Shown here: piece by piece, positions 20,672 through 46,748 of the stretch
Position numbering within the stretch: the stretch's first letter is position 1
Layout: every line of letters starts with the position of its first letter
Source of the DNA: Aquimarina spongiae
Lineage (GTDB): Bacteria; Bacteroidota; Bacteroidia; Flavobacteriales; Flavobacteriaceae
NCBI RefSeq assembly: GCF_900141785.1
Contig: NZ_FQYP01000002.1
Location: 124,001-188,000 of the forward strand
Length of the DNA stretch: 64,000 bases
Direction: 5' to 3'
The notes under the pieces: generated by a model
Seen by the model: only the letters and a program-made list of their open reading frames with translations
What the model was told of the DNA's origin: nothing
Databases searched by the model: none
Made by a program: the position numbers and the translations under genes

Positions 20672-21589
20672 TTATTGTTTTGTAAAACGTTTGGTTTTAC
20701 CGGTTTTAAAGTCTTTTACTACATACATTCCTGAAGGCAATTCATGTATATCTATAATCAAAGAGGTATCATCTGACTTCGTTTTAGTGGTTAGCAGTAG
20801 ATCTCCATCTAGGTTATAAATACCAAGAGAAGTTTGGGCTTTTGCACCTTCCAATCGAATTTCATGCGTAGCAGGAACAGGGTAAATGATTAAGTGTTCT
20901 TCTTTACTTGGATTTAATTTTACCTTGGAAGTAAAAGTATTGGTCGTAGATCGTATCTCAAGCCAATTGATATTCCATCCTCCTGAAAGAGCTTTGATCG
21001 CTATTTGCTGAGCTCCTTGTTCTAAGTTAACCCTGTGCGCTATAGTGGTCCAGTTTTGCCAGTCTCCTGTATTAGGAATATCTAGGGTGCCATAAACAGG
21101 AATTCCACCTGCCTTTTCAAATTGAAGTCTCCCTCCAGAATTGGGACTTGCCACCCGATATTCAACAGAATAACTTCCTGTTCTTAGAATAGTTACATCC
21201 CAAACCAACCAATCATTAACATCAATCCACCCCACATTAAGCCCACCTTCAGAGCAAGGTTCGGTTTGAGTCCCAGACTGTACGACATTGTTTTCTGCTT
21301 CGATGCGTGTAGACCAGGAAGGTTGAATTTTGGACACGATTGCCGAACTCATAATATCATTAAACCCTTCATTTACCAAGCAGTTATCATCACTTGTTTT
21401 TAGCAAAGATGCTCCTGTAAAATTATCGTGTTCATACATGGTAACTTGATATCCATCCTGAACACGAACTGAGGATATATCATTATCCACAAACCCAAGT
21501 GCCTGCAGTTGACTCATGGAGTAGCTACCTTCATTTAGAGGTATGCTATAGCCACCGTAATCACAATGCTGAAAAAGATTTACAAGTCC
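20672..21589 (-). repeat. duplicated betagamma-crystallin/CBM6/sorting-domain cassette, GH16 copy
   Basis: This 918-bp segment is paralogous to 18513-19424. Long stretches match at nucleotide level as well, especially across the CBM6 part (about 21040-21250 against 18880-19090), pointing to recent duplication or gene conversion. Confidence 0.85.
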
Positions 21590-22369
21590 TGAAGGCGTAT
21601 TCGTTTGTTGATACACTCGAACATAATCTACTAACATCCTTGCAGGAAAAGCAGTATTATCCACTACAAATCCAGGCCAATTTCCTCCTATCGCCATATT
21701 GAGTAAAATGAAAAAATTTTCATGAAACTCCGAGGTTCCATTCACTCCATTGGCAATACTAGCTTCGTGATACAGGGTATTATCCACATACCATTTGATA
21801 GCATTGGCATCCCATTCTATGGTATACACATGAAAATCTGTAATATTGCCGACAGGAGTAGCCCCACTATAATTAGCATATAGATTATTATGATCCTGCC
21901 AATGGATGGTTCCATGAGTTTGTGTTTCGGTATTTACATGCTCCATAATATCTATTTCACCACAGGCAGGCCAACCTATTGATGAAATACTATTGCCCAA
22001 CATCCAAAATGCAGGCCAGGAACCCGTAAAAGAAGGCATTGCAATACGAGCTTCAACCTTACCGTATTTCCAGGATTTTCTTCCCTGGGTTTTCATTCTT
22101 GCAGAAGTATAATTAAACCCACCCACAGATTCTTGCCGAGCTGTTATGACCAGGTTACCATTTTCAACAGTTGCATTTTGCTGTTGATAATACTGAAGTT
22201 CATTATTACCCCATCCAGAATTTCCATTTCCGGTTTCAAAAACCCAGTCCGTACTTATTCCGTTTGTAAATTCATCTTGCCAAACCAAAGTCCAGTTTTG
22301 TGCAATTGACAAATGGCCGCATAAGGATGTAAATAAAAGCAGGATCGTTTGTGTTTTGATCGTTTTCAT
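20672..22369 (-). CDS. GH16 beta-1,3-glucanase (laminarinase-type) with betagamma-crystallin and CBM6 domains
   Basis: This 565-aa secreted protein has a signal peptide 1-24. The GH16 domain spans 25-255 with the catalytic GEIDIMEH motif: Glu138 nucleophile, Asp140, Glu143 acid/base. The extra Met in E-I-D-I-M-E is the mark of laminarinase-type (beta-1,3-glucanase) members. A betagamma-crystallin-like domain (262-347), CBM6 (356-476) and T9SS sorting domain (about 490-565) follow, duplicated from or to the adjacent GH64 gene. It lies 28 nt after the GH5-GH18 gene and 11 nt before GH64, so the three form an operon. Endo-cleavage by GH16 would complement GH64. Confidence 0.93.
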   Translation of the reverse strand: MKTIKTQTILLLFTSLCGHLSIAQNWTLVWQDEFTNGISTDWVFETGNGNSGWGNNELQYYQQQNATVENGNLVITARQESVGGFNYTSARMKTQGRKSWKYGKVEARIAMPSFTGSWPAFWMLGNSISSIGWPACGEIDIMEHVNTETQTHGTIHWQDHNNLYANYSGATPVGNITDFHVYTIEWDANAIKWYVDNTLYHEASIANGVNGTSEFHENFFILLNMAIGGNWPGFVVDNTAFPARMLVDYVRVYQQTNTPSGLVNLFQHCDYGGYSIPLNEGSYSMSQLQALGFVDNDISSVRVQDGYQVTMYEHDNFTGASLLKTSDDNCLVNEGFNDIMSSAIVSKIQPSWSTRIEAENNVVQSGTQTEPCSEGGLNVGWIDVNDWLVWDVTILRTGSYSVEYRVASPNSGGRLQFEKAGGIPVYGTLDIPNTGDWQNWTTIAHRVNLEQGAQQIAIKALSGGWNINWLEIRSTTNTFTSKVKLNPSKEEHLIIYPVPATHEIRLEGAKAQTSLGIYNLDGDLLLTTKTKSDDTSLIIDIHELPSGMYVVKDFKTGKTKRFTKQ

Positions 22370-22397: not shown

Positions 22398-24215
22398 TTA
22401 TTCCTTGATCAATCTTCCTGTATATCTTTTGTCGTTTACCCTACTCTTATAAAAATACATTCCAGGAGCTACATGTTCCAAATCTATTCTCAGCGATGTA
22501 TTGGCCTTATTATTAGTAAAATTATCTTTTTGATACACCTTTATACCTGCCATATTGTAGACCTCGATGCTGAAATTATGAATTGGTGTATCTAGAGTGA
22601 AGTGTACATATTTTTGTATTGGATTCGGAAATATGCTAAGCTCTTCTGTATTCACTTTTAGCGATGTAACTACTTCATTACTTCGACTTCCTAATCCGTC
22701 GAGATAGGCTCTTACTGTATTTGAAAAGTTTTTATTTTCGAATGCATCCCAATTGATAGACCAGCTCATCACACCTCGCAACGCCGGATAGGTTTGTGTA
22801 AGATTGTATTGCCCTCCAAATCCATTTCCTTTGATTAGGTAATCGAGAGCCGTAATTACACCTTGTGCTCCTGTATGACCATTACCAGCGTTTACTGTTG
22901 CCGGAACTCCAATCAAAATCTGATCAGGTCTTAAAGCTGGAAAGAACTTACTTTGATCTCTTGTTATCGGAAAACCTTTCAGCAACATATCCACCAAAGA
23001 CACATAGAAATCTGAATTACCCATACCGTAAAACTGATCATCTAATGCGGTTATCGAACCAGAATTATAATACTGTACCTGTAAAAAAGTAAGCTTATCA
23101 CGTAACGCATGAATTAACGGCAAGTATGCTCCTGCTCTGCGATCTGCTCCTGCAGAAATTCCTCCATAAAAAGAATACCCCAGCTGCACAAAAAAGGTCT
23201 CTGGTGCCATCGTAAGGATAAAATCATCTCCAAAATGGTTGCATACATCTCTCACCGCATTTATGGTATTCACGATTACCGGAGTGGTGGGATTTTCAAA
23301 ATCGGTATCTCCCAGGTTGAAAGAAAGAGATTGTCCTTCAAAATCAATATCCATCCCATCGAATCCGTATTCTTCAATAATCGAAATCATGGAGGTAATG
23401 AACTTGTCTCTTGCCGAAGTGGTATTCAATTGCACCTGTCCCTCAGCACCACCGATAGAGATAATTACTTTTTTACCCTGACTTTGTAACCATTGAATAT
23501 CTGACTTAAATTCATTAACATCATAATTAATCGTCCCAAAAACAGGATCCAACTCGAAGCCTATTTCACCATCGGTAGGAGAAATTTTAGACACCGCAAA
23601 GGATACGTTAATCACATCCCAGTTGGGAGATACATCTCGTAATTTGATTAACCCAGATCCATTTTGAAAATTATGCCAATATCCATTCAAAATTCTGGCT
23701 GGTAATCCTGTGGTAGGTGGTGGAGTAACAGTACCTACGGTAACAGTTACAGGTGAAGATTCTGTGGTTGCATTATCGTTATCAGTTGCTTTGGCAGTTA
23801 AGGTAGAAGTACCTGTGGTAGCATTGGTCCAAATCGACTCATAAGGTGCTGTGGAATCTTCTCCTATTTTTATACCATTTCTAAAAAACTCCACCAAACT
23901 AATTGTTCCATCTGTATCTGAAGCTGAAGCCGTAATGTTAATCGTGCTTCCCGCGACAAAAGATTGTCCTGAATTAGGCTGTGTAATAGTTACGGTAGGG
24001 GCTTCATTTCCATCAGGCGGATTGCCTCCATCGCATTCGCCTACCAAAGTCCAGGCGTCTTGCCAATAGGTTCCTTCTCCTGGTGCATAGGCCCATGCAG
24101 CTCCATTACACCATCCTGAAAACGGATACGGTTTACATTCATAGGTATTTCCATTATTTTGAACCACACTACCCGCAACATAACCTCCATTTTCAACATA
24201 TTGTGGATCAGTACA
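22398..24215 (-). repeat. duplicated CBM5/12-Ig-GH18-sorting cassette, GH5-GH18 copy
   Basis: Residues 606-1210 of the chimera run collinear with residues 1361-1955 of the triple-GH18 protein (26134-27921). The CBM5/12 region is almost identical (for example PYPFSGWCNGAAWAYAPGEG in both). Confidence 0.87.
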
Positions 24216-26030
24216 GGTCGTACCTCCAGTATTGTTTTCTACGGAAATAGTAACAGCAGAAGATGTACTGCTGGCATTATCATTATCGATAACTATTGCC
24301 GAAATTGAATGACTTCCTGTAGTTGATACCCAACTAGCATCAAAAGGAGCCGAAGTATCCTCTGCGATCTTATTTCCATCCACAAAAAACTCTACACGAG
24401 TTACACTACCATCTGCATCGGATGCATTTGCAGAAATAGTTACGGTTTGTCCTGCTGTATATGTCGCTCCTTGTTGGGGTGCGGTAATCGTGACAATCGG
24501 CAATTGATTATCAGGGGTTGTTTCAGAAGTAAATGTAAATCGATGAATATTAAAATCACCACTATCCATAAATACCCGTATAATCTGTGGTCCTGCAGTA
24601 AGGGGAACATTAGCTGAAATAGTCTGCCAAACTTGCCACCCTCCCGTATTAGGAACAATGATAGGACCACTAACATCTTGATTGTTGACTTCCAAATGAA
24701 ATTGTTTCCCTCCGGATATAGCAGCTACACGAACTTCAAGAGCATACGTTTTTGTCTCTTGTACATCTACAGAATACTCCAACCACTCGCCAGCATTGAT
24801 CCACCCCACATTATATCCTCCTTCGGAGCAGGGTTCTACATCGACTTCATCAGTACGATATGAACCTCCTTGATTTGCAGAACTAAGATCGTTGTAGGCA
24901 ATACCAGAACCACCAAGATCATAATTCTCTGCCTCTACAATTCCAGGAATTATAGCTGGAGTCCCTAAATAAGGCCTTTGGGTTTCTCCCGGATCACCCC
25001 CCGGAAAATCATCGGCTGGAAATTTAATTTTATCACGTATCCAACTACCGGCTTCTTTTAATCGATTGGTAGTCCATGGACCTCCAGAACATGTTCCTGC
25101 CTGCCATGCAGCTCCAGAACGGGTATCATCAGAGTAATTCCAACTGGTCCAACTAATTTTCTTTTGGCGCATCAAATCAATAAAACGTTGGGTCATAACA
25201 AAATCATTCGGCCCATCTCCTGTAAATTCCTGACTTCCAAATTCGGTGACAAAAACAGGCAATTGACTAGAAGCTTGATCCAAAACATTTAGATATGCAT
25301 CCTGATGACTCTTTGCATAAAAATGAAATGTATACATCACATTATCAAAAGATAACGGGTTATCGAGTACATCCTGTAGGTTCCCTTCTCCAGACACTCC
25401 AAATGTTGCCCATCCCTGAGTACCTACCAGAACCACTGCATCGTTATCAATCCCACGAATTACCGGGATGATCTGATCTGCGTATGTTTTGATACGATTC
25501 CAGTTCACCCCAGCACCGTTGGGTTCATTGCACACATCATATATAATATTATTCTTATTCTTGTGTTCGTTGGCTATATCGGTAAAGAATCTTTTGGCAT
25601 TTTCGAGATTGGCATTTGGATCTCCGGGACTGAGTTGATGCCAATCAATTAGTGCATACATTCCTCTTTCTGTGGCTTCATTAATCAGTCGACTCACTTG
25701 TGTAGTAAACCCAACCGGATCGGTTTCATACCCTCCTTCCTGTACATATAGAGAAATACGAAGGATATCTGCTTCCCAATCGTATGCCAAAGCATCCAGT
25801 GAAGCTTCGGTTAAACAATCTCCCCATCCATACCATTGTATACCATGGGTACTCATTCCACGCAGTTGTATGGGTTGATTATATTGATTACACAGTTGTG
25901 TTCCACATACTTTTAGTTGACCATTTTGGGATACAGGGGTGTTTTGAGCGATGGTCTTTGCACTAAACAATATGCAGAACACAAGAGTAATCAAAACAAT
26001 ATAATTGGCTAATATATTTTGTGTTTTCAT
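22398..26030 (-). CDS. bifunctional GH5-GH18 secreted glycanase/chitinase
   Basis: This is a 1210-aa protein. Signal peptide about 1-29; GH5 domain 32-340 (subfamily 2-like) with acid/base Glu169 in CNEP and nucleophile Glu263 in TEFG; CBM6 365-501; Ig-like domain 511-599; CBM5/12 606-667 (Cys-rich, WCNGAAWAYAPGEG); Ig-like 678-766; GH18 777-1125 with DGMDIDFE (891-898, Glu898 catalytic); T9SS sorting domain about 1135-1210. The GH5 half should cut beta-1,4-glucan or related glycans and the GH18 half chitin. The C-terminal 605 residues parallel the end of the neighbouring 1955-aa chitinase. It heads the GH5-GH18/GH16/GH64 operon, just after a strong terminator. A GH5-GH18 fusion in one chain is uncommon. 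Confidence 0.92.
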   Translation of the reverse strand: MKTQNILANYIVLITLVFCILFSAKTIAQNTPVSQNGQLKVCGTQLCNQYNQPIQLRGMSTHGIQWYGWGDCLTEASLDALAYDWEADILRISLYVQEGGYETDPVGFTTQVSRLINEATERGMYALIDWHQLSPGDPNANLENAKRFFTDIANEHKNKNNIIYDVCNEPNGAGVNWNRIKTYADQIIPVIRGIDNDAVVLVGTQGWATFGVSGEGNLQDVLDNPLSFDNVMYTFHFYAKSHQDAYLNVLDQASSQLPVFVTEFGSQEFTGDGPNDFVMTQRFIDLMRQKKISWTSWNYSDDTRSGAAWQAGTCSGGPWTTNRLKEAGSWIRDKIKFPADDFPGGDPGETQRPYLGTPAIIPGIVEAENYDLGGSGIAYNDLSSANQGGSYRTDEVDVEPCSEGGYNVGWINAGEWLEYSVDVQETKTYALEVRVAAISGGKQFHLEVNNQDVSGPIIVPNTGGWQVWQTISANVPLTAGPQIIRVFMDSGDFNIHRFTFTSETTPDNQLPIVTITAPQQGATYTAGQTVTISANASDADGSVTRVEFFVDGNKIAEDTSAPFDASWVSTTGSHSISAIVIDNDNASSTSSAVTISVENNTGGTTCTDPQYVENGGYVAGSVVQNNGNTYECKPYPFSGWCNGAAWAYAPGEGTYWQDAWTLVGECDGGNPPDGNEAPTVTITQPNSGQSFVAGSTINITASASDTDGTISLVEFFRNGIKIGEDSTAPYESIWTNATTGTSTLTAKATDNDNATTESSPVTVTVGTVTPPPTTGLPARILNGYWHNFQNGSGLIKLRDVSPNWDVINVSFAVSKISPTDGEIGFELDPVFGTINYDVNEFKSDIQWLQSQGKKVIISIGGAEGQVQLNTTSARDKFITSMISIIEEYGFDGMDIDFEGQSLSFNLGDTDFENPTTPVIVNTINAVRDVCNHFGDDFILTMAPETFFVQLGYSFYGGISAGADRRAGAYLPLIHALRDKLTFLQVQYYNSGSITALDDQFYGMGNSDFYVSLVDMLLKGFPITRDQSKFFPALRPDQILIGVPATVNAGNGHTGAQGVITALDYLIKGNGFGGQYNLTQTYPALRGVMSWSINWDAFENKNFSNTVRAYLDGLGSRSNEVVTSLKVNTEELSIFPNPIQKYVHFTLDTPIHNFSIEVYNMAGIKVYQKDNFTNNKANTSLRIDLEHVAPGMYFYKSRVNDKRYTGRLIKE

Positions 26031-26133: not shown

Positions 26134-27921
26134 TTAACGCTTAATAAGCTTTCCTGTGGTCTTACCTTTTGTGGTGGTAATCGTATAGAAGTATAATCCT
26201 TCTTCTAGTTGACTTACATCAAAAGTGGCTAGGTTACTTCCCTTTTGTAGTTTAGTATTTTGGTATTGTAATACCTGTATACCTGTGGCATTAAAAATTT
26301 GCAGATCAAAAGTGCTGTTAGATACTTGATTATCCAATTTTAGGTTGATCACATCTCCTTTAACTGGGTTTGGAGAAAGGGTAACTTCGGTAGTTTCCTC
26401 TTCTTGGACAAGGCTTGCTCTGGTATCCAAACCATCCAGATACGCTCTATGCGGATTAGAGAATCCGAAACCAGCTACAATATCCCAGTTGATAGACCAA
26501 GTCATCAATCCTCGGAAATTTGCATATCCAGAAGGGTTACGTAACGTATAACGTCCTCCAAACGATTGCCCTTTGATGATATAATCCAATGCCTTATGCA
26601 CCTCTGAAGCTTCAGTATATCCACTCCCCGCTGCAGATGGGCTTGCCGGTAATCCTATAGCAACCTGATCCGGACGCAAAGCAGGGAACTGTTGTCCACC
26701 CGCTACTGGGAATCCTTGCAGCAACATATCGGCCATGGCAACATGAAAATCTGCGTTTCCTGATCCGTAACACAATCCATCTAAACCAAGCATACACCCT
26801 GTGTTGTAATGTTGCACATGAATGTAATCCATATCGTTTCGGAGTGCATAGATTAAAGGAAGGTAAGCTCCACTTGGTCCTCCATATCCACTAAATCCTC
26901 CTTGCACAAATAGCGTTTCCGGAGCCATCGACAATATAAAATCAGAGCTATATTGACTTAAGATTGTTCTAAATGCATTGATTAAATTAACCACCTTAGG
27001 AGATGTTGGGTTTTTAAAATCGGTATCTCCCGCGGCCAACGAAATTGAAGAACCTTCAAAATCAATATCCATTCCATCAAAACCATATTCGTTGAGAATA
27101 CTGATCATCGAATTACTAAAAGCTTGAGCATCTGCTGGGCTATCTACATCTACAGCTCCGGTTGCACCACCCATAGAGATTAATACTTTCTTACCTCGAC
27201 TTTGCAATAAAGCAACATCATTCTTAAACTCCTGAACACTTGAATAGATCGCTGGATCCGGAGTAAAAACCATTGTAGCTCCATTAGGTACGGTCGGGAT
27301 GGCAAAAGATACATTGATCACATCCCATTTATCGGATACATCTCTTAGCTTTGGTATCGAAGAACCATTGTCAAAATTATGCCAATACCCTACCAAAATC
27401 CTTCTCGGTAAATCTCCTCCAGGATTTGGTGGATTTGTAGATCCTACAGAAATATTTACCGCAGTGGCATCACCTGTAGCGTTGTCATTATCAGTTGCTG
27501 TGGCAGTTAAGGTATAATTTCCGGTAGACACATTACTCCAGGTATAACTGTAAGGGCTATTGGTATCCTCTCCTATTTTGGTGCCATTACTGAAGAACTC
27601 AACCTTGGTCACTGTACCATCACTATCTGATGCTGATGCATTAATAGTTATAGTACTTCCTGCTGTAAATGTTTGTCCGTTTGCAGGTTGTGTAATCGTA
27701 ACAGTTGGTGCTTCGTTACCCGGAGGGTTACCCCCATCACATGCTCCTACCAAGGTCCATGCATCTTCCCAATATGTTCCTTCTCCTGGAGCATAAGCCC
27801 AAGCTGCACCATTACACCATCCAGAGAATGGATACGGTTTACATTCATACAAACTACCATTGTTTTGCACCACACTACCTGCTTCGTACCCACCATTTTC
27901 TACATATTGCGGGTCATTACA
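26134..27921 (-). repeat. duplicated CBM5/12-Ig-GH18-sorting cassette, triple-GH18 copy
   Basis: This is the second copy of the cassette described at 22398-24215. Both copies share the same domain order and the same GH18 subtype, with the catalytic motif ending in DFE rather than DWE. Confidence 0.87.
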
Positions 27922-30900
27922 TTCACCTCCATCGGTTGGATTTCTGGTAACAGTTATCGAGTTTGAAAAATCATAATCTCCTTGTAAATCTGAAGTATTA
28001 TTGTTGGCAGCAAGACCTATTAATCCATCTTCATAGCTTAAATGCCAGATCAAACAGATCCCTGCAGGGGCCTCGTCGAAATTCACATCCTCTGGAGCTG
28101 CCGGTAACCCAAGTATAGTGCCCATATCATCGGTAACCACCCATTGAGAGTTAGTTCCGCTATTTCCGGTCAAAGTAACTCCCGAAACATTATCAGCAAT
28201 ACCATCTCCTACTGTAAATACAAATGGCCCACCACTTATTGTTCCTCCAGAAACGGTATTTCCATCGGTATTTACTACGATGCTTATCGCAGAAGATGTA
28301 GTTGTAGCTCCCTTATCATCGGTGGCGATTGCAGTAAGCGTATGATTGCCTTGAACTGCAGTCCAATTGCCCGTATAAGGTGCTGTTGTATCCTCTGCAA
28401 TCATATTTCCATCTACATAGAACACTACTTTTGTGACACTACCATCACTATCTGATGCAGACGCACTAATAGTAACAGCATTACCCACTAAAAATGTTGC
28501 TCCGGACTGAGGCGTAGTAATGGACACTTGTGGTGCTACGTTATCGGGTTGACAAGGATCACCAACTACCTGATTGATGGCTGCCAATAAAGAGGTGTTC
28601 GGATCTGAAGTATCGTGAGATAGCTCCCACATCATGATTCCACCAGCACGATCTAATGCCATTTGCGTTTTCGCTTTGATCGTCGGGATTCCGTTATAAT
28701 TATTTCCTTGAAAAGAATCACTATTTGGGCTAGCGCCTTGTACTAATAATGAAGCATAGCTCTGCGCTTGTGGGCGGCTGTAAAAAGGAACTCCCAATAC
28801 TGCTTTTTCTTTTGGTAATCCTCTACCTAACCAATAGTTTAATCCTCCCTCGGCTTGAGCCATTGTAGAGTGCTCTGGACCATCGTAGGCCATAATATTT
28901 AAGAAATCTACATCATCAAAAACACCGTTAAGTACGCCATCTGCATTCCATCCGGAAACCACAACTGCAGCAGTCAACAGTTTTCCACGACTATGCATAG
29001 CCTGACCTAATTCTTGCATTAACAATTCGAAGTGTTGAGGTTCATTCCCTTCTCGAGGATATTCCCAATCCATATCAACTCCGTCAAGATTATATTGATT
29101 TACAAAATTGACCAGATTGTTTATAAAAGCTGTTCTTGTCGTTGGATTTGCTGCCAATGTAGTAAATGGAGAGTCATTACCATCCATCCATCCTCCTACA
29201 GCAATCAATACTTTTACACCTTGCGCATGCCCCAAAGTAACGATTTCTTGCATTTTTGCAGCATTTTCGAGCGGTCGTAAACTACCATCACTATTTGGTA
29301 GTAGGAAAGAATAGTTAATATGAGTTAGCTTATCATATTGAATTCCGTTTGCGGCACCTTGCCAGCTGGGCATATATCCCACAACTTTAAAATTACTATT
29401 ACCGCAACCTCCATCTGTGTTTACTGAAATGGATACAGCGGATGAAGTCGTAGACAAATTAGCATTATCTGTAGCAATAGCAGTAATGCTATGACTTCCC
29501 AGAGTACTATTCCAGTTTGTAGTATATGGTGCCGTAGTATCTTCGTCAATCAAATTTCCATCTACGTAGAATGCTACTTTAGTGATATTTCCATCTGCAT
29601 CTGATGCGGTAGCATTTATTGTTACTGCACTACCATCGGTAAATGTTTGTCCGCTTGAAGGTGAGGTGATGGATACCTGTGGGGCCGCTTGACCATCTCC
29701 ACAAGGACCTATCAGTTTCCAAACATTTTCGCGATTCGTTACGGGGTCATTGTTTTGTGTCCACCATTTGGCTTCGTACTCATTTCCTTGATAAGACACT
29801 CTATCGCCTCCTGTGTACACTTGACCAGGAACATATGCTGGTACAGAACAGTTGTCTCCTCCAGTAACCGTAATAGCAACTGCTACCTGGCTTGTTCCGT
29901 TTCTATTATCAGTAGCTCTTACTTGTATCGTATGATTTCCTGAAGAGGCTCCTGTCCAGTCATAACTATATGGTGCTGTAGTATCTTCTCCCAAGAGCAC
30001 ATTTCCATCATAAAATTCTACCTTGGTTATGGTACCATCAGAATCTGAAGCATCAGCAGTAATGCCAATAGTAGCTCCTGACGCGAAGGAAGCTCCATCT
30101 TGAGGAGCAGTAATAGCTACTTGTGGTAATTGATTTTCTACATCGATATCACCAACAATAACAGATACAGTTGCTGTTGCACTCCCCCCATCATTATCAT
30201 AAGCTTTTGCGATTATCGAATTAGGTCCCAGTGGTGCGTTCTGCCATGTATACGCATATGGAGCAGAAGAATCTTCTCCTAGCAAAACTGTACCTGCATA
30301 GAACTCTACTTTAGTAATACTTCCATCAATGTCATTGGCATTGGCTGTAATTGCAATATCATCACCAGCAGAAAACTCGGTATTGTTAGCTGGAGAGCCT
30401 ATAGATACAGTAGGGTTAATATTTCCTCCTCCAGTGGCAAAAACTTCATTTACCTTATTTACCAAAGGTGATTTCACATTTGACCATCGTTTTAGTTTAT
30501 TTCCAAAGGACTGGGCCGTACCTGATATTTCAAGGTCCCCAAAAACAGTCCATACGATAGTTCCGCCAAGGTTATTCTCATTGATATATTGTGCCTTAAT
30601 TCCTATAGACTCTTCATCATCATAACTCAAAAAGAAATTTCCTTTGGTCATATAAGGTACTTTGGCCTGATCGTCCCATTGTCGGGTCCATCCACTACCT
30701 GCTCCTGTTTTTTGTTTGATAAAAAAGTGGTTTGGTGTTCCATCATACACATCCAAAGGCCAGTTGGTATAATCTGCAGATGTACTTACTGGTCCATCAG
30801 GTTGTATAGTTACATTTCTTTTAGAAGTAGGTGCGTTGAGAGCAGCTGTACCTTCGGTAACCACTCCTCTACCATAAAAAGGAATCCCAAAATTGATTTT

Positions 30901-32001
30901 AGTCGATGGAACTCCCAAAGAAAGTAGTTTGTTAAGTGTAGATTGCCAATTGAAATCTGGCGCTTCGGCTCCATCGTATGGATAGATCGGTGCATTATGT
31001 CCTGCAATATTTGACCATCCTCCATTAAAATCATAGGTCATCATATTGAAGTAATCCATGCTACTCACTAACTGAGGCCAGTTGAATCCATCCAATTTTA
31101 CAGGATCTGCAGACATTGCGGCAGTGATCAATTTATCTGGGCCAATAGCCGTTCTAATCTCTTGAACCAGAGTTGCAAAATTGGCAAAATCAGCGTTGGT
31201 ACCTGTAAAGTTCATCCCAGCATAAGGTCCTGGGTATTCCCAATCCAAATCGATACCATCAAAGCCCATATTGATCAGCTTTTTGCAGTCTTCGATAAAG
31301 CGAGCTCGTTTTACCGGATCTGCTGCCATTTCAGGAAAATGTTTACACATACTCCAACCTCCTATGGAAGCCATCACTTTTACCCCATTGTCATGAGCAA
31401 GTTCGAGGAGTCCTTTGGCTCCACTACCTTCTTTTGGTAATGGAAGTGGCAATACCCCGCTTAATCCCCATTCGGGATGTGTCCATGTATTTCCGCCAAC
31501 TTCTACCTGAAAACCTAAAGCTTCTGCTCGTTGTTTGACATCTTCATTGATCCACTGTATGGGCTCTATTTCTCCAAAAAGAATATAGAAATCCCAACTG
31601 CTATAAACATCACCATATAATAAATCTCCTGGTTGCTGTACTTGCCCCTCTTGATAGATTTGTTTATTTCTTAAATCTCCACTATGCAATGACCCGTCGA
31701 CTGCCACTCCAAAGAAGGAAAAATTAAGAATTGTGTATTTTGAATAATCTATATTCAATTGTGTTAGAGCACCTGCAGAGGGTACTCCCGCGCTAGCGGC
31801 TTTCCAAGCATCCCAATTGGTAATATATCCAATAATTTGCTTGTTGTGATTAGATGTAGTTGCGCTTCCTCCGGTATTCACTTGTGCCTGACACAAGTTA
31901 CCGATAAGAAGTACGCTAATAATCGCTAAAAAGTTGAAAACTCGGATTGATTTTTTGGGTATAATCCCCTCTAACCAGTCCCAAAGATTGATTGGTTTCA
32001 T
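26134..32001 (-). CDS. giant T9SS-secreted chitinase with three GH18 domains
   Basis: This 1955-aa protein has an N-terminal hydrophobic signal (about 20-40, after an unusually long polar lead); GH18-1 54-510 (DGIDLDWE 248-255); Ig-like 528-618 and 625-713; CBM5/12 717-767; Ig-like 774-861; GH18-2 871-1147 (DGVDMDWE 973-980); Ig-like 1156-1244; a domain 1255-1352 (SGGPFVFTVGDGIADN to LSYEDGLIG) recurrent in flavobacterial secreted proteins; CBM5/12 1361-1421; Ig-like 1430-1519; GH18-3 1531-1860 (DGMDIDFE 1642-1649); T9SS sorting domain about 1875-1955. All three motifs keep the catalytic Glu. The first domain has a large insertion typical of ChiA-like processive enzymes. It resembles the two-GH18 ChiA of Flavobacterium johnsoniae but has a third catalytic unit. 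Confidence 0.95.
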   Translation of the reverse strand: MKPINLWDWLEGIIPKKSIRVFNFLAIISVLLIGNLCQAQVNTGGSATTSNHNKQIIGYITNWDAWKAASAGVPSAGALTQLNIDYSKYTILNFSFFGVAVDGSLHSGDLRNKQIYQEGQVQQPGDLLYGDVYSSWDFYILFGEIEPIQWINEDVKQRAEALGFQVEVGGNTWTHPEWGLSGVLPLPLPKEGSGAKGLLELAHDNGVKVMASIGGWSMCKHFPEMAADPVKRARFIEDCKKLINMGFDGIDLDWEYPGPYAGMNFTGTNADFANFATLVQEIRTAIGPDKLITAAMSADPVKLDGFNWPQLVSSMDYFNMMTYDFNGGWSNIAGHNAPIYPYDGAEAPDFNWQSTLNKLLSLGVPSTKINFGIPFYGRGVVTEGTAALNAPTSKRNVTIQPDGPVSTSADYTNWPLDVYDGTPNHFFIKQKTGAGSGWTRQWDDQAKVPYMTKGNFFLSYDDEESIGIKAQYINENNLGGTIVWTVFGDLEISGTAQSFGNKLKRWSNVKSPLVNKVNEVFATGGGNINPTVSIGSPANNTEFSAGDDIAITANANDIDGSITKVEFYAGTVLLGEDSSAPYAYTWQNAPLGPNSIIAKAYDNDGGSATATVSVIVGDIDVENQLPQVAITAPQDGASFASGATIGITADASDSDGTITKVEFYDGNVLLGEDTTAPYSYDWTGASSGNHTIQVRATDNRNGTSQVAVAITVTGGDNCSVPAYVPGQVYTGGDRVSYQGNEYEAKWWTQNNDPVTNRENVWKLIGPCGDGQAAPQVSITSPSSGQTFTDGSAVTINATASDADGNITKVAFYVDGNLIDEDTTAPYTTNWNSTLGSHSITAIATDNANLSTTSSAVSISVNTDGGCGNSNFKVVGYMPSWQGAANGIQYDKLTHINYSFLLPNSDGSLRPLENAAKMQEIVTLGHAQGVKVLIAVGGWMDGNDSPFTTLAANPTTRTAFINNLVNFVNQYNLDGVDMDWEYPREGNEPQHFELLMQELGQAMHSRGKLLTAAVVVSGWNADGVLNGVFDDVDFLNIMAYDGPEHSTMAQAEGGLNYWLGRGLPKEKAVLGVPFYSRPQAQSYASLLVQGASPNSDSFQGNNYNGIPTIKAKTQMALDRAGGIMMWELSHDTSDPNTSLLAAINQVVGDPCQPDNVAPQVSITTPQSGATFLVGNAVTISASASDSDGSVTKVVFYVDGNMIAEDTTAPYTGNWTAVQGNHTLTAIATDDKGATTTSSAISIVVNTDGNTVSGGTISGGPFVFTVGDGIADNVSGVTLTGNSGTNSQWVVTDDMGTILGLPAAPEDVNFDEAPAGICLIWHLSYEDGLIGLAANNNTSDLQGDYDFSNSITVTRNPTDGGECNDPQYVENGGYEAGSVVQNNGSLYECKPYPFSGWCNGAAWAYAPGEGTYWEDAWTLVGACDGGNPPGNEAPTVTITQPANGQTFTAGSTITINASASDSDGTVTKVEFFSNGTKIGEDTNSPYSYTWSNVSTGNYTLTATATDNDNATGDATAVNISVGSTNPPNPGGDLPRRILVGYWHNFDNGSSIPKLRDVSDKWDVINVSFAIPTVPNGATMVFTPDPAIYSSVQEFKNDVALLQSRGKKVLISMGGATGAVDVDSPADAQAFSNSMISILNEYGFDGMDIDFEGSSISLAAGDTDFKNPTSPKVVNLINAFRTILSQYSSDFILSMAPETLFVQGGFSGYGGPSGAYLPLIYALRNDMDYIHVQHYNTGCMLGLDGLCYGSGNADFHVAMADMLLQGFPVAGGQQFPALRPDQVAIGLPASPSAAGSGYTEASEVHKALDYIIKGQSFGGRYTLRNPSGYANFRGLMTWSINWDIVAGFGFSNPHRAYLDGLDTRASLVQEEETTEVTLSPNPVKGDVINLKLDNQVSNSTFDLQIFNATGIQVLQYQNTKLQKGSNLATFDVSQLEEGLYFYTITTTKGKTTGKLIKR

Positions 32002-32181: not shown

Positions 32182-34227
32182 CTACAATTCACTTTTCTTT
32201 AAATGCTCAAACAACTTCATAAAAGCGTCATAAGTCACGATCTCGACATCCGCTCGAGGTTCTTTGATGATGTTCATCAGGGAAGCGAAATCATTTGCAT
32301 CAGCTTTGGACACCCCTTCTTGTTTCAGAATTTTCAAGAAAAACGCTGAAACATTCTTTAACGCCGATGATAGTTCCAACAACTCTGAAACCAGAGGAGT
32401 TTCTCCTTTCAGAACAAGTAATTCTTCGTGATTTGCTATCCATTGATGAAACATGGATTCTAGTGGTTTCTGAGCTACTTCGGCTTCAGTAATAAACGTA
32501 TCCACCAATTGACTAAATTGATAAGCATCCGGTGCATCTGTAGTACAAGCATCTGCAAATAAGGTAAAGGGCGAATACGATTTGTACTCTGTTCCTCCCT
32601 TATTGCGGCTGTATTTTTGTAAAGGTTGACAGACTTTGGTTAATTTCTGAAGTGCATCTGTCTGATACCCATTGGAGATATTTCTTAGGATCACATTTTG
32701 ATTTTTAAGATGAGTGAGCCCAAGTTCTTCTAGTCGAAAACTGATCATAGTGAGTCGTTTTCTCATGTGTTGTATATCAGTAACAGTAGCCGGTGACCAA
32801 AACCGTTCGGCTATTGCAGCAGTTCTTGGCCAGATCCTGGAATCAATAGTAAGTGGTGTTACCAATTCTCCCCACATGGTAACTTCTCCTCCTAAAATTT
32901 TCTTTTGCTCCTCTTTTGTTAAGCTAAATGATTTTGGTAGTGGGTCTACTAAATAATGGTTATTTACATCATGCATACGATCGATATAATACCCTGTAGA
33001 CAAAATAGAATAATGTCCTTTTTGTGCCGCTTTAGCCAATGACTCACCTGGTTGTAGCCCTTCCTCTACGCCTCTCCATGAATGAATTAATGCAGTTGTT
33101 GGCATTTGTGGCGTCATAATCTCTTCCCATCCTACTAACCTTTTACCTAGTTTTTCTAATATCTTTTGTAATCTGAGATTGAAATGGGTTTGTAAATCGT
33201 GATTTGATTGAAAACCGTGTTTCTTTTTGAAGGCCATGATTTCAGGGTTTTCGTCCCAGTGTTTCCCCTCGTTTTCATCACCTCCAATATGAACATAAGG
33301 ATCAGGAAATAGTTCTGCTATTTCCGTAAATACATCCTCCAGTATTTGATACGTCTTCTCGTTGGTAGGATCCAAAGTAGGATCAAAAATACCAGCATAC
33401 CGTTCGATAGTATAGGTATCCTTTTTACTTCCCAACTCTGGATACGCCGTAAGCAACGCAGATGCATGCCCGGGAACATCTATTTCTGGTATTACCCTAA
33501 TCCCTCTCTCTGCTGCATATTGAATGATCTCTTTTATCTCCTCATGTGTGTAGTACTCTCCGTCAGAACCAAGTTCATGCAATTTCGGGTGTCGTTTTGA
33601 TTCCAATCTAAACCCTTGATCATCGGTTAGATGCCAATGAAAAACATTGAGTTTAACAGCTGCCATAGCATCAAGGTTTCGTTTTAACACGTCCAAAGGT
33701 TGATAGTGCCGAGCTACATCGATCATCAAACCACGCCAAGGAAACCTTGGCGCATCTTCAATATTCAATGCAGGAATATAAAAATAGTTAGCACTGGGGG
33801 TTACTAATTGCAACAAGGTTTCCAGGCCTCTTAGAGCACCAATATCAGTTATCGATTTGAGATAAATAGTCTTATCTGTTATCTGCAGCGAATATGACTC
33901 ATCATCAAAGTTTTGTAAACTTCCTTCTCGTTCAACTTCAATAATAAATGATGGAGCACTTTTTACTTTTTGTGGGAAGCCTTCTTCAAAAAACACCCCT
34001 GTTCTTCCACTTAATCGTCTTAAAAAACGAGTAGCTCCATTATGCAATCGTTGAGAAGACACATTTTGAATAAAAAGGGTAAAATCCTCTTTTATTACAT
34101 AATTTCCTGCACCTTGATGAATCTCTTTTGGCCAAGGCATTAAATTATATGAATACTGATCCGTTGTTTGTGCTGTAACTAATTGCATTGTCCCAAGTAT
34201 TAGGGCGATCCAATATATTTTTTTCAT
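32182..34227 (-). CDS. GH20 beta-N-acetylhexosaminidase
   Basis: This 681-aa protein has a signal peptide 1-19. It has an N-terminal GH20b alpha/beta domain (about 25-155) and the catalytic barrel from FPWRGLMIDVARHY (163). The catalytic pair Asp317-Glu318 lies in HIGGDENEG, and the HWHLTDDQGFR segment (198-207) is the family hallmark. It releases terminal GlcNAc from chitobiose and longer chitooligosaccharides in the periplasm. The C-terminal region after about 500 is helical and shows no binding module or T9SS domain, consistent with a periplasmic location after SusCD uptake. It starts 9 nt after the nagB-like gene, so the two are cotranscribed. Confidence 0.95.
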   Translation of the reverse strand: MKKIYWIALILGTMQLVTAQTTDQYSYNLMPWPKEIHQGAGNYVIKEDFTLFIQNVSSQRLHNGATRFLRRLSGRTGVFFEEGFPQKVKSAPSFIIEVEREGSLQNFDDESYSLQITDKTIYLKSITDIGALRGLETLLQLVTPSANYFYIPALNIEDAPRFPWRGLMIDVARHYQPLDVLKRNLDAMAAVKLNVFHWHLTDDQGFRLESKRHPKLHELGSDGEYYTHEEIKEIIQYAAERGIRVIPEIDVPGHASALLTAYPELGSKKDTYTIERYAGIFDPTLDPTNEKTYQILEDVFTEIAELFPDPYVHIGGDENEGKHWDENPEIMAFKKKHGFQSNHDLQTHFNLRLQKILEKLGKRLVGWEEIMTPQMPTTALIHSWRGVEEGLQPGESLAKAAQKGHYSILSTGYYIDRMHDVNNHYLVDPLPKSFSLTKEEQKKILGGEVTMWGELVTPLTIDSRIWPRTAAIAERFWSPATVTDIQHMRKRLTMISFRLEELGLTHLKNQNVILRNISNGYQTDALQKLTKVCQPLQKYSRNKGGTEYKSYSPFTLFADACTTDAPDAYQFSQLVDTFITEAEVAQKPLESMFHQWIANHEELLVLKGETPLVSELLELSSALKNVSAFFLKILKQEGVSKADANDFASLMNIIKEPRADVEIVTYDAFMKLFEHLKKSEL

Positions 34228-34236
34228 TAACTTTTT

Positions 34237-36204
34237 TTAAAAATGATATCGCTTAAAAGCCTCTATGGCTTCATATTCTGCTAAACCTAGTTTGTGATAC
34301 TTTTCTGCTGTTTGTTGATTTCGTTCTTCTGCTCTTACCCAAAATTCTCTAGAGTCATCTCCTTGAAACATTACTCCATCCTTTTGAGACTGATGAAAAA
34401 ATATGGCCTTGCGTTTCTTTAGTACCTCATCAGGACTTAAAGGAACTGCCATTTCTATATCATGAATATCCCATTCTTGCCAAGCTCCTCGGTATAGCCA
34501 TACCCAACAATCCTTCATATATTCTTCTTCTCTCAGATCATTTAACACTTCAAATAACACATCCAAACATACTTTATGTGTTCCATGAGGATCTGCCAGG
34601 TCTCCCGCCGCATAGATTTGATGGGGTTTGACTTTCTTGATCAAGTTGGTTAATCGTTTTTTATCTTCCGGTCCGTATGGATTTTTCTTTACCGTTCCGG
34701 TTTCGTAAAAAGGAAGGTCAAGAAAATGTACATACGCATCTGGCAAGCCCAAAAATCGTGTCGCTCCATAAGATTCTCCTCTACGGATCAATCCCTTTAA
34801 AGATCTCGTTGATTCAGAATCTATCATCCGTTCCTGTTTCCTTTTGAGTTCCAAAATGATTGAACCGATGTTTTCCTTATCAGTTGCAGGTAACATATTT
34901 TGTATCACCTCTGCATATTTTATGGCCTCTTCATCAGACACTGCAATATTTCCAGAGGTCTGATACGCTACATGTACAATATGATCTTGTTCTATCAAGC
35001 GAAGAAATGTTCCTCCCATAGAAATCACATCGTCATCGGGATGAGGACTTAGAATCAACACTCTCTTTTTATGTGGGGTATTGCGCTCTGGCCTATAGGT
35101 ATCATCAGCATTTGGTTTCCCACCTGGCCATCCGGTAATGGTATGCTGTAAGGTGTTGAACATTCTGATATTTAGTTCATATGAAGAACCTTCTTCCGCC
35201 AAAAGTCCTGACATTCCATGGTCATTATAATCCTTGTCTGTTAATTTTAGAATTGGTTTTTGCACTTTTTGACTCAACCAGATAATGGCTTTATTCTTGT
35301 TTTTTTCGTTCCAACGGCAAGGACCAACTAACCAAGGAGTTTTGATTCTTGTAAGCTCTTCTGCAGCCTCCTTATCCAAAACAAATGTGGTATTTTCATG
35401 ACGCTGCAAATACGAAGCAGGTACTTCTGAAGAAACCATTCCTTCTATAGTTTCCTTTACGACTTCTGCCTTTTTATGTCCCCAAGCCATAATGACAATT
35501 CGCTTTGCTTTTTTAATGGTCCCAATACCCATCGTAATTGCTTTTTTGGGAACATTTTCGATACCAAAAAAAGCAGGAGCAGCATCAGATCGTGTAAGGT
35601 GATCCAGAGTGATACTTCGAGTTACCGAATTATAATGAGATCCTGGTTCATTAAATCCAATATGCCCAGTTCTACCGATCCCTAACAGTTGAAAATCCAA
35701 TCCACCAAAGGAGTTTATTTTTAATTCGTAATCGATGCAATATTGATGGATTTGTTCCTGTGGAATAGTCCCATCAGGAATATGAATATTTTCTGGTAAA
35801 ATATCTACATGATTAAACAGGTGTTCGTGCATGAAATAGTGGTAACTCTGTACATTGCCCTTTTCCATTGGGAAATACTCGTCCAGATTAAACGTAACCA
35901 CATTGGCAAAACTTAGACCTTCTTCCTTATGCATTCGTACTAGTTCTTCATACACCTTTATTGGCGAAGAACCTGTAGCCAATCCCAAAACACAAGATTC
36001 TTGTTGTGCTTGCTTTTCTTTGATTAACCCTGCTATTTCTTGTGCAATAATGATAGAAGCATAATCCGAACTCTTAAAAATCACATTATGGATTTTTTCA
36101 AACCGTGTCTCTTCAAATTTTCCAGCTTCGCGATAGCTGATATCCTTGTAATAAGGCCCGTTGCTATTATTGATCGAGGAATCGTACTTTGTTTGTGTAC
36201 TCAT
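34237..36204 (-). CDS. nagB: glucosamine-6-phosphate deaminase fused to a PIG-L-type deacetylase domain
   Basis: This 655-aa cytoplasmic protein (no signal peptide). Residues 40-300 form the NagB isomerase/deaminase domain with LATGSSP (75-81), FNLDEY (105-110) and GIGRTGHIGFNEP (175-187), all active-site motifs. Residues 378 onwards form a PIG-L/LmbE domain with the zinc motif SPHPDDD (His388, Asp391) and a later DPHGTH His pair. NagB converts GlcN-6-P to Fru-6-P and ammonia. PIG-L enzymes are N-acetylglucosaminyl deacetylases, so the fusion may couple deacetylation and deamination. The fused form of about 640-660 aa is widespread in Bacteroidota. No separate NagA gene is present in this window. 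Confidence 0.93.
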   Translation of the reverse strand: MSTQTKYDSSINNSNGPYYKDISYREAGKFEETRFEKIHNVIFKSSDYASIIIAQEIAGLIKEKQAQQESCVLGLATGSSPIKVYEELVRMHKEEGLSFANVVTFNLDEYFPMEKGNVQSYHYFMHEHLFNHVDILPENIHIPDGTIPQEQIHQYCIDYELKINSFGGLDFQLLGIGRTGHIGFNEPGSHYNSVTRSITLDHLTRSDAAPAFFGIENVPKKAITMGIGTIKKAKRIVIMAWGHKKAEVVKETIEGMVSSEVPASYLQRHENTTFVLDKEAAEELTRIKTPWLVGPCRWNEKNKNKAIIWLSQKVQKPILKLTDKDYNDHGMSGLLAEEGSSYELNIRMFNTLQHTITGWPGGKPNADDTYRPERNTPHKKRVLILSPHPDDDVISMGGTFLRLIEQDHIVHVAYQTSGNIAVSDEEAIKYAEVIQNMLPATDKENIGSIILELKRKQERMIDSESTRSLKGLIRRGESYGATRFLGLPDAYVHFLDLPFYETGTVKKNPYGPEDKKRLTNLIKKVKPHQIYAAGDLADPHGTHKVCLDVLFEVLNDLREEEYMKDCWVWLYRGAWQEWDIHDIEMAVPLSPDEVLKKRKAIFFHQSQKDGVMFQGDDSREFWVRAEERNQQTAEKYHKLGLAEYEAIEAFKRYHF

Positions 36205-36522
36205 TGCGTAACTTAAGTTATGTTGTTTAATGGCTTATCGAAAATGAAACTATTACCTATATGGCTTTTATGAAAAGTTTTTCGACAGATGACATGAAAG
36301 CAATCACAAATGACAATAAAAATTGCACTAGATGATGAAGCAAAAAATCACTAATAATTTTTTGGAGTCCCATTAGCCCCATAAACCTTGTTGTTGCACC
36401 AGAAAAACACCTATATTTAAAATCTGGTTGTATGTCGACAAAAGCATGCTATATAGAGCATAAATTCGGGAATTGACACAAAGTTGATTACTTTGATTTC
36501 TTATAGAAATTTGTCTTCGAAA
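36205..36522. other. divergent promoter region between nagB and the VCBS lipoprotein gene
   Basis: This 318-bp gap must carry the start signals of the nagB-GH20 operon and of the plus-strand VCBS gene, but no exact TAnnTTTG is seen. A 5-bp inverted repeat ATGCT/AGCAT (36446-36461) and the string TTGACA (36473-36478) lie on the VCBS side. I see no ORF or RNA gene. Confidence 0.4.
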
Positions 36523-39500
36523 ATGGTCTTTAGAAAATTCTGGATTTTAGTATTCCTGTCTCTTATTCATTGCAATACAGAACATCAAAACGGTAACCAT
36601 AAGAAAGTTCAAGAAAAGGAATCATTATTCAAAATGGTTGATCCTTCTGTTTCTAATATTTATTTCAAAAACGAAGTGTCTGAAACCTTATCATTTAACT
36701 TCCTAAACTATTCGTACATATACAACGGCGGAGGAATTGCAGTGGGAGATATCAATAATGATGGATTAGAAGATCTGTATTTTAGCTCTAATCAAAACAG
36801 TAATAAATTATACCTAAATAAAGGAAATTTTATTTTTGAAGATATTACTGAAAAAGCCGGAGTTGAAGATGCTACTGGTTGGACTACCGGTGTATCAATG
36901 ATAGATATCAACAATGATGGATGGATAGATATTTACGTATGCAAATCGGGTTCTTTACATGATTCTGAAAAAAGGAAAAACAAATTATATATTAACCAAC
37001 GAGATGGAACTTTTCTAGAGCAAGCAAAAGTCTATGGACTGGATAGTGAAGCCTATTCTACTCAAGCCTATTACCTAGATTACGATAAAGACGGTGATGT
37101 GGATATGTACCTGGTCAATCATCGTGCTGATTTTAACAATAATGTGGTTGTTGATCCTAGAATACAAAACAATATTGATCCAGAAAGTACAGATCAGCTC
37201 TTTGAAAATGTAACCGGAAAATTTAAAAACGTCACACAAACTTCCGGAATTCTAAATAAAGCCTGGGGACTGAGCGCAGCAATTGGTGATTTTGATGAGG
37301 ATGGATGGCCGGATATTCATGTGGCTAATGATTTTTTGGAACCTGATTTCCTTTATATCAACAATAAGGATGGGACTTTTACTAATCGGATTCTTGAAAC
37401 TTTTGACCATATTTCTGCCAATAGCATGGGATCAGATTATGCAGATATCAATAACGACCTAAAACCAGATCTTATTGTTTTAGACATGCTTGCCGAAGAT
37501 CATCAAAGAAGTAAAGAAAACATGGCAACCATGAGCACTGATAACTTCAAGTATTTGGTGGATATAGGATATCATTATCAATATATGTCTAATATGCTTC
37601 AGTTGAATTTGGGAGATGGATCTTATAGTGAAATTGGGCAATTATCAGGCATTTCCAAAACCGACTGGAGTTGGGCTCCTTTAATTGCAGATTTTGATAA
37701 TAACGGGTATAACGATCTTTTGGTTACCAATGGTATCAAACATGATCTTTCTAATCAGGATTTTAGAAATAGTATGCGAAACAATATCCTCAATCAACAG
37801 AAAGTCACTTTACAAGAAGCCATAGGTATGATGCCTTCTACCACTTTGGAAAACAAAATATTTTCGAATGCCGGCACGTATCAGTTTCAAAACAAAAACC
37901 AAGAATGGGGGCTACATCACAAAATAAACTCTAATGGTGCAGCCTATGTGGATCTTGATAACGACGGTGATTTGGATATTGTCTTAAACAATCAAGATGT
38001 CATTGCTAGTATCTACCAGAATCAACAATCCAACAACTTCATAAGTATCACATTGTCTAATCCTGAAAACAATAATACACTTTTGGGAACTCGCATTAAG
38101 GTATACACCAATCAACATCAACAGATGAAAATGTATTATACCTGTAGAGGTTTTCAATCTTCGGTAACCAACAACCTACATTTTGGCCTGGGCAAAACCG
38201 AAATCATAGACAGCATTGTGGTTGATTGGCCCAACAATCAATCCAGTTCTTTAAAAAATGTTGTGGCAAATCAAAAACTTCATATTGACTATAAAAAGAA
38301 AGAAGCATTCTCAAAATCACAAACGACAGAGACAGTCGCAATAAAAGTCCATCCTAGCAATGCATTTGGAGTAACTTACAACCATCAGGAAACCCAATTT
38401 GATGATTATGCGTTACAACTATTACTCCCCCAAAAGCAAAGCGAAAAAGGAACTCCAATTGCAGTAGCTGATGTAAATAACGATGGTTTAGAAGATTTCT
38501 TTGTCGGGAATGCAAAGGGTGCTAGTGCCATGCTTTATATTCAAGATAATTCAGGTTCTTTTTCTATCATGAGTCAAAACACTTTTGAAAAGGATAGTAA
38601 TTTTGAAGATCGAAAAGCACTGTTTTTTGACTATGACAACGATGGGGATCAGGATTTGTATGTTGCTTCCGGGAGTTATGAAAATATTGCAGACAAACCT
38701 TATCTGCAGGATAGAATTTATGAGAATACTGGTCAAGGAAATTTTACAAGAAAAGAAAATCTATTACCTAAAATTCAAACGGTATCAGGAGGAATTGCTA
38801 TTGCAGATTTTGACAACGATCAAGATGAAGATATTTTCATCGGAGGAGGCTTTATACCAGGTAAGTACCCTTCTGCTTATCCTTCCTATATTTTGAAAAA
38901 CGAAAACGGAAAGTTTATTGATGCTACTCAGGATATAGCAAAAGACCTGTCAAATATCAATCACATCAATGATGCATTATTTTCTGATTATGATAGTGAT
39001 GGTGATCTTGATCTTGTGGTTGTTGGCGAATGGTCTTCCCCTACAATTCTTGAAAATAAAAAGGGAAAATTTGAGGCTGCAGATATCAAAGCGCTAAATG
39101 ATTTGTCTGGTTGGTTTTTTAAAATTTCAAGTTCAGACATTGATAATGATGGTGATATCGATTACCTCTTAGGTAACTTGGGTGAGAATAATAAATTTCA
39201 TCCCTCTACAGATAAACCTTTCCATATATACGCCAAGGATTTTGATGCTGACCATAGCATTGACATTGTCCTAAGTAAAACCACAAAAAAAGGAGTTTTG
39301 CTGCCTGTTAGAGGAAAGGAATGTTCGTCTCAGCAAATCCCTAGGCTTTCTGAAAAATTTAAGACGTATAATTCATTTGCTGCTGCTTCTTTACCCGAAA
39401 TTTATGGTCAAGAAGCTCTAAATAATGCAGTTCATTATACTGCTACCTGTTTTACCAGCTTGTTATTAAAAAACAAGGGACAAGGAAATTTTGATGTTCA

Positions 39501-43461: not shown

Positions 43462-43471
43462 TTTACTAATT

Positions 43472-46474: not shown

Positions 46475-46748
46475 GAAATTAAGATTGATTTGTTTGATTA
46501 TTTCCGATTTAAAGGTTTTATGAATAAACTTGAAAAAGAAATTAAATATCTAAACAGCATTAAAAAAACAATAAACGACGTATTTCCTCATATAAGCGTT
46601 TTTGCGATTGAGCACTTTTTAAAATATTCCTTAAAGTATTTTGTTTTTAAATAAAAAAACACATAATTTTTTCACGTTTTTTAACAAATTCACACAAAAA
46701 ACATCAAAAACCGTGTTTAACTGGATAGCAACATCTGATGGTTACAAA

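Follow-up and report, generated by a model that had tools for sequence, protein, structure and literature searches.

The window analyzed in this study, a stretch of 64,000 nucleotides of Aquimarina spongiae (contig NZ_FQYP01000002.1, positions 124,001 to 188,000), encodes on its minus strand a ChiA-like multicatalytic chitinase of the type IX secretion system (T9SS) with three GH18 domains in a single chain (26134..32001). Our reading, to which we assign a probability of about 0.75, is that this protein serves a chitin and beta-glucan locus as its key secreted chitinase and belongs to the type of Flavobacterium johnsoniae ChiA (FjChiA), with an additional GH18 domain (D2) placed between the two end domains (D1 and D3) and all three acting synergistically. 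The chain with the extra GH18 domain is a widespread variant of the known T9SS multicatalytic ChiA of chitin polysaccharide utilization loci (PULs). As far as our searches show, the triple variant is undescribed: no description of a triple-GH18 bacterial protein was found in the literature searched, the coverage of which largely leaves out subscription papers, and a search on three catalytic domains retrieved one paper, on a fungal genome. Two-domain FjChiA serves as a model for the breakdown of recalcitrant chitin by Bacteroidota, and a natural series of D1-D2, D1-D3 and D1-D2-D3 chains and of split genes, in some cases in a single genus, allows the contribution of a third catalytic domain to be addressed. 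Should the triple chain bring no gain, the value of catalytic fusion would thereby be bounded.

Three GH18 domains of different type in one chain

The reading frame, characterized by its translation, Pfam, and NCBIfam, runs from an ATG start over 1955 amino acids and contains no internal stop. Pfam revealed three GH18 domains (whole-protein E-value 1.4e-127), five Big_7 domains, one CBM_5_12 module, and a T9SS tail. The unbroken frame and these matches bear out what had been proposed from the letters of the DNA alone (the sequence-only reading), namely a single 1955-residue polypeptide with three GH18 domains and five Ig-like spacers. Given the E-values of the GH18 matches and the conservation described below, a chance match is of no concern.

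All parts of the protein lie on the minus strand. D1 (residues 54-500; 30502..31842) was delimited by Pfam and structure comparison and carries a long insertion, which is absent from D2 (residues 870-1150; 28552..29394; Pfam) and from D3 (residues 1530-1859; 26425..27414). The scores with the GH18 model were 216.5, 153.3, and 54.4 bits, respectively, at a cut-off of 29.6 bits. Each domain contains the DxxDxDxE signature (residues 248-255, 973-980, and 1642-1649), and the motifs DGIDLDWE, DGVDMDWE, and DGMDIDFE with their catalytic glutamates, as previously read, were located in D1 (Glu255), D2 (Glu980), and D3 (Glu1649). The tyrosine motifs of the three domains are MMTYD, IMAYD, and VQHYN.

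The three catalytic sites are intact, conserved, and constrained. Motifs were surveyed in GH18 domains above 200 bits in 124 proteins, that is, 120 listed of 410 matches and four proteins of the window. The catalytic glutamate was present in every one of the 281 domains, own copy included (D1 116/116, D2 72/72, D3 93/93). The ratio of nonsynonymous to synonymous substitution (dN/dS) was determined according to Nei and Gojobori for ten triple genes, and only pairs with dS below 1.5 were considered, the others being dropped as saturated. Median dN/dS was 0.065 for D1 (15 of 45 pairs), 0.048 for D2 (11 of 45), and 0.129 for D3 (17 of 45), with 0.198 as the highest value of a single D3 pair. These ratios indicate purifying selection on all three GH18 domains. 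That one of the domains is dead is not supported, since the glutamate is invariant and dN/dS low in each. Likewise, the loss of activity in two domains that the sequence-only reading had considered fatal to synergy is nowhere indicated at this level in D1, D2, or D3.

The domains differ in type. With landmarks picked by eye, the stretch from strand 7 to helix 7 comprises 83 residues in D1, 29 in D2, and 13 in D3, and in the predicted model the long stretch of D1 contains strands and helices. The long insertion claimed for the first domain is thus present, and in D1 alone. As to D2 and D3, previously described as shorter endo types, the lack of a long insertion stands, but the endo mode is no more than a possibility, as published data on relatives conflict. 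The solved structure nearest to D1 is ChiW (5gzt, 5gzu), and those nearest to D3 are 5kz6 and Bacillus cereus NCTU2 ChiA (3n11). In a comparison of folds, D1 was best matched by insect and mammalian chitinases, which does not decide on an exo or processive mode. ChiW and B. cereus NCTU2 have been named as nearest to the two ends of FjChiA, FjChiA_N and FjChiA_C (PMC7426924). Because the same structures are nearest to the ends of the window's protein, D1 is assigned to the FjChiA_N type and D3 to the FjChiA_C type, indirectly by way of these common relatives. Judged by sequence, D2 is the extra GH18 domain, of a type seen elsewhere as a separate GH18-CBM6 gene. A recent internal duplication was rejected: local identities are low (D1-D2 35% over 189 residues, D1-D3 28% over 121, D2-D3 35% over 99) and the nearest relatives differ.

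Two binding modules were identified. Pfam placed a CBM5/12 at residues 722-762 (29716..29838). The second module, at residues 1361-1424 (27730..27921), is CBM73-like: NCBIfam detected a GbpA-like C-terminal stretch at residues 1355-1417, and residues 1361-1424 match the solved structure 6z41 and the ends of CbpD (7sqx) and GbpA (8gul). Entry 6z41, a module of 68 residues from a putative carbohydrate-binding protein, is taken to be a CBM73. The sequence-only reading is therefore supported in part; its mixed GH18 types, all apparently catalytic, are retained, but only residues 722-762 match CBM_5_12 instead of the two CBM5/12 modules stated, and the uniqueness of the chain was not upheld either (see below). 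The CBM73-like module of the triple chain (P0001) is 91% identical to that of the neighboring protein P0003 (residues 606 on), and the D3 domains of the two proteins are 55% identical. The closeness of the two modules is no more than suggestive of a possible exchange, conversion, or concerted evolution, however: P0006, an orthologue, shows 92% identity to each of them.

An unnamed domain of 108 residues (residues 1248-1355; 27937..28260), here called X, follows D2 and precedes the CBM73-like module; it had escaped the sequence-only reading. X matched no Pfam family above the cut-off and no confident structural relative, and was predicted as a small all-strand domain with a beta-sandwich fold. 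GGPF and WH columns are invariant among 14 sequences, and X occurs in tandem in P0025 and P0046. From the model, X is probably an Ig-like spacer. The best of the five Big_7 Ig domains was found by Pfam at residues 1432-1500 (27502..27708).

The chain starts with a signal peptide-like stretch, recognized by eye (residues 1-40; 31882..32001), and ends with a T9SS type A sorting tail (residues 1877-1955; 26137..26373; Por secretion tail of Pfam, and NCBIfam). The tail has 70 matches in the same genome, which also encodes SprA, a protein with a role in T9SS.

Distribution and history of the triple architecture

For the homologue search, 7992 candidates of 0.55 to 1.75 times the query length were scored; shorter relatives are outside the count. 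Among the 120 homologues listed of 410 matches, 42 exhibited the order D1-D2-D3 and one D1-D3-D3, besides D1-D3 (37), D1-D2 (29), D1 only (6), and D3-D3 (5). P0005 is 98% identical to the 1955-residue protein and may come from the same species. Named carriers of the triple chain include Aquimarina, Flavivirga, Abyssalbus, Tenacibaculum adriaticum, and Geofilum. Three GH18 domains in one open frame were found in at least 18 of 52 genomes of the same genus, own included, and the seven triples among 79 loci from named genomes (drawn from the best 80 listed) were all from Aquimarina. The idea of a unique triple-GH18 chain was consequently rejected, as the architecture is common in the genus, is found in no fewer than four further named genera, and is shared by 42 of the 120 listed homologues; many such orthologues are what the sequence-only reading had itself named as removing novelty, most of which is thereby lost. 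At one locus (L049, genome G027), the triple chiA is broken by in-frame stops, for which decay and assembly error are both possible.

In Chitinophaga ginsengisoli (L076), Niastella vici (L074), and Flavitalea (L077), a single gene carries D1 and D3, and the D2-type GH18 occurs together with CBM6 in a second gene; for L076 the GH18-CBM6 layout was confirmed by Pfam. In a quick D2 tree of 80 rows, with several long branches and no root inferred, the stand-alone D2 domains of L074, L076, L077, and L111 fell into a clade of 33 rows consisting mostly of D1-D2 chains (SH-aLRT 98, starred). The D2 of the window was found in a separate clade of 45 rows (42 triple and three D1-D2 rows; support 80). That the D2 of the window descends from a separate GH18-CBM6 gene is unsupported, given the separate clades and an unrooted tree that provides no order. 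Aquimarina sp. RZ0 (L069) carries, in a gene neighboring chiA, a fusion of a D2-type GH18 with GH16 and three CBM6 modules.

Proposed mode of action and alternatives

Like the protein of the window, FjChiA is a T9SS-exported multicatalytic chitinase with GH18 domains at its ends and an Ig- or Fn-like middle part (PMC5127042, PMC7426924). It has two GH18 domains instead of three, which makes the present protein a variant and not a copy, and its middle part is described as without close similarity to studied proteins. Covalent joining of the unlike GH18 domains and the binding middle part resulted in far more chitin turnover than the separate domains; FjChiA_N was judged to be exo-acting and likely processive, and an endo mode was suggested for FjChiA_C (PMC5127042). 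Because synergy was measured for the two domains of FjChiA, synergy among three would be expected by analogy.

According to the mechanism that we propose, T9SS would export and sort ChiA, and the CBM5 and the CBM73-like module would hold it on chitin. D1 most likely runs along chain ends, its insertion forming one wall of the cleft and mainly chitobiose being released. D3, and D2 with a more open cleft, would generate fresh ends or trim chains of other geometry, and the three domains would thus act synergistically, as the two of FjChiA do. The SusCD pair of the locus would import oligomers, GH20 and later enzymes would complete the breakdown, and a lytic polysaccharide monooxygenase (LPMO) and the GH5-GH18 neighbor would attack crystalline or other wall parts.

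The locus may also target whole walls of chitin and beta-glucan, of fungi or other chitinous organisms, with ChiA as one part of a wall-degrading set and not as a pure-chitin machine; we regard the odds of this as about even. Downstream, in the same orientation, follow genes for CBM6-bearing enzymes of GH5, GH16, and GH64 and for an astacin peptidase; L058 retains this order and L055 part of it. Furthermore, the FCWUL of Chitinophaga pinensis, a PUL with ChiA, ChiB-CBM6, and GH16-CBM6, acted on fungal wall material, the overall conversion being low (PMC10449523); the L076 locus of C. ginsengisoli is of like layout. In several triple-ChiA loci (e.g., L038, L039, L040, L044, L045, and L046), on the other hand, no GH16, GH64, or LPMO was found in the stretch examined, and glucanases therefore appear to be optional.

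The Chitinophaga enzymes also bear on the individual domains. CpChiA of C. pinensis has two GH18 domains, three Big_7 domains (PF17957), and two CBM5 modules (PMC10449523), and the D2-type GH18, fused in the window, is a separate gene there (CpChiB-CBM6). By analogy with L072, L074, L076, and L077, we infer that CpChiA_C is of the D3 type and CpChiB of the D2 type. Both CpChiA_C and CpChiB were reported as exo-acting, and synergy between exo enzymes was observed in the Chitinophaga set, at low conversion (PMC10449523).

Several observations weigh against three synergistic domains in an exported chain. As relatives of D2 and D3 are called exo-acting, a scheme of one exo and two endo domains fits poorly, and CpChiA_N alone showed very low activity (PMC10449523). 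For the T9SS sortase PorU, the search with NF033707 gave only C-terminal matches below the cut-off, and PF01364 gave no match anywhere, with the controls likewise silent. In a quick D1 tree of 116 rows, the triple label changed at least 11 times, with 8 changes forced by starred branches, which points to repeated gain or loss of the triple form; from these at least 8 changes it follows that two-domain or split-gene species are common. Finally, D3 is the least constrained of the three domains, and the full motif is altered in 19 of 93 D3 domains (first Asp to N or S in 17, third Asp to N in two), the window's own D3 motif being complete.

The variability of D3, together with its faster evolution (median dN 0.172 vs. 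0.097 and 0.074 for the other two domains) and the many relatives lacking D2 (the D1-D3 chains, 37 of the 124 proteins) or D3 (the D1-D2 chains, 29 of 124), would agree with D2 or D3 being mainly a binding or oligosaccharide-trimming module, crystalline chitin being degraded by D1 and the binding modules. We consider this unlikely, since the glutamate is kept in all D2 and D3 domains surveyed, dN/dS is well below 1 in both, and isolated FjChiA_C, CpChiA_C, and CpChiB are active enzymes (PMC5127042, PMC10449523). A neutral origin of the triple fusion by module shuffling in a repeat-rich locus, with no gain over separate chitinases, is improbable: although 22 architecture changes over all labels were counted on the D1 tree, modules recur with varied partners, and P0001 and P0003 resemble each other more in their CBM73-like modules than in their D3 domains, at least 18 same-genus genomes retain the triple in one open frame and purifying selection is indicated for all three GH18 domains.

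Besides the FjChiA type, to which we assign the protein, several GH18 domains in one chain (two stretches) are found in ChiW of Paenibacillus sp. FPU-7 (5gzt, 5gzu), a Gram-positive cell-surface enzyme that is not known to carry a T9SS tail. The insect group II chitinases (Ostrinia furnacalis; 5y29, 5y2a) are eukaryotic and are not known to have a T9SS tail or Big_7 domains.

The surrounding locus and the partner slot

The chitinase gene lies in a chitin PUL, in which a SusC/SusD pair (41872-46474) stands beside the enzymes and a sensor-regulator (46641-48484). Unless stated otherwise, the genes are on the minus strand. The pair consists of a SusD-like protein (41872..43461) and a SusC/RagA-type TonB-dependent receptor (43472..46474; NCBIfam), and the regulator, on the plus strand, of a histidine kinase and a LytTR response regulator (46641..48484). 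Toward chiA follow a lipoprotein-like GH18 protein with DGIDWDFE (read by eye), CBM5/12, Big_7, and a weak second C-terminal CBM (39892..41739), a glucosamine-6-phosphate isomerase (NagB-like) domain fused to a PIG-L de-N-acetylase domain (34237..36204; Pfam), and a GH20 beta-N-acetylhexosaminidase-like enzyme (32182..34227; Pfam). On the other side of chiA are P0003, of 1210 amino acids, with the order GH5-CBM6-Ig-CBM73-like-Ig-GH18 (D3-like)-T9SS tail (22398..26030; Pfam and structure matches), a GH16-CBM6-T9SS glucanase-like protein (20672..22369; Pfam), a GH64 beta-1,3-glucanase-like protein with CBM6 and T9SS tail (18513..20660; Pfam), an LPMO10 carrying CBM5/12, whose T9SS tail scores slightly below the NCBIfam cut-off (17123..18427), and an astacin-family (M12A) peptidase (15934..16953). 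In Aquimarina acroporae (L058), the stretch bounded by the lipoprotein GH18 and the astacin has an identical gene order.

The FjChiA locus ChiUL is likewise a PUL with SusCD, GH20, NagB, and a two-component regulator; its two SusCD pairs are accompanied by four enzymes, with no LPMO or glucanase among them in the description available (PMC5127042). The same paper, from 2016, states that LPMOs were at that time not known from Bacteroidetes, and two GH18 genes and one LPMO have been counted in Aquimarina muelleri (PMC10535946). The LPMO10 with CBM5/12 of the window (17123-18427) sits in a Bacteroidota PUL.

The gene after chiA is a fusion with a changing partner among Aquimarina (window, L055, L048, L075, L042, L069). 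The variants found in this slot were GH5-GH18 (window), GH8-GH18, LPMO10-GH18, GH5-GH19, and GH5-GH16-GH19. The GH5 domain of P0003 is nearest to endoglucanase E-5 (2cks) and also matched the 1a3h/2a3h set; 2A3H represents GH5_2, which comprises endoglucanases and a few reported chitosanases (PMC3526467). Partners were counted in 79 proteins, namely P0003 and 78 new ones among 120 listed, and comprised GH5-CBM6 (12), GH5-CBM6-D3 (11), GH5-CBM6-GH19 (7), GH5-CBM6-GH16-GH19 (3), and GH8-CBM6-D3 (2), the remainder being D3 and other combinations. In L055, a GH8-GH18 gene directly follows the triple chiA ahead of GH16 and GH64, in the same slot as P0003. The GH8 of P0137 is nearest to 7cju (named glucanase and chitosanase) and chitosanase 1v5c (E-value about 1e-103), and more distant from glucanase 5xd0 (4e-88) and CelA (2.5e-35); it is likely a chitosanase, and a mixed-linkage glucanase is also possible. 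In L048 and L075 (same gene), the gene that follows the D1 gene joins LPMO10 to a GH18 of D3 type, and L047 and L060 resemble this LPMO10-GH18 on weaker evidence (LPMO score 114-117).

More tentatively, the three GH18 domains could be distinct tools with a three-way synergy beyond that of two-domain ChiA, and the partner slot (GH5, GH8, or LPMO) could extend the pair to crystalline, acetylated, and deacetylated chitin, a proposal that we find rather doubtful. D1 would then be the end-running tool, D2 of the type that elsewhere works alone with CBM6, and D3 a small open-cleft chitinase. The swapping partner gene (GH5, GH8, or LPMO with GH18; GH5 with GH19) provides natural designs for enzyme mixtures.

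PADLOC, applied to two proteins of the window outside the chitin locus, gave no match. Within the locus, a gene for a 1117-residue FG-GAP/ASPIC-UnbV protein is located on the opposite, plus strand (36484..39837) and is kept in L058.

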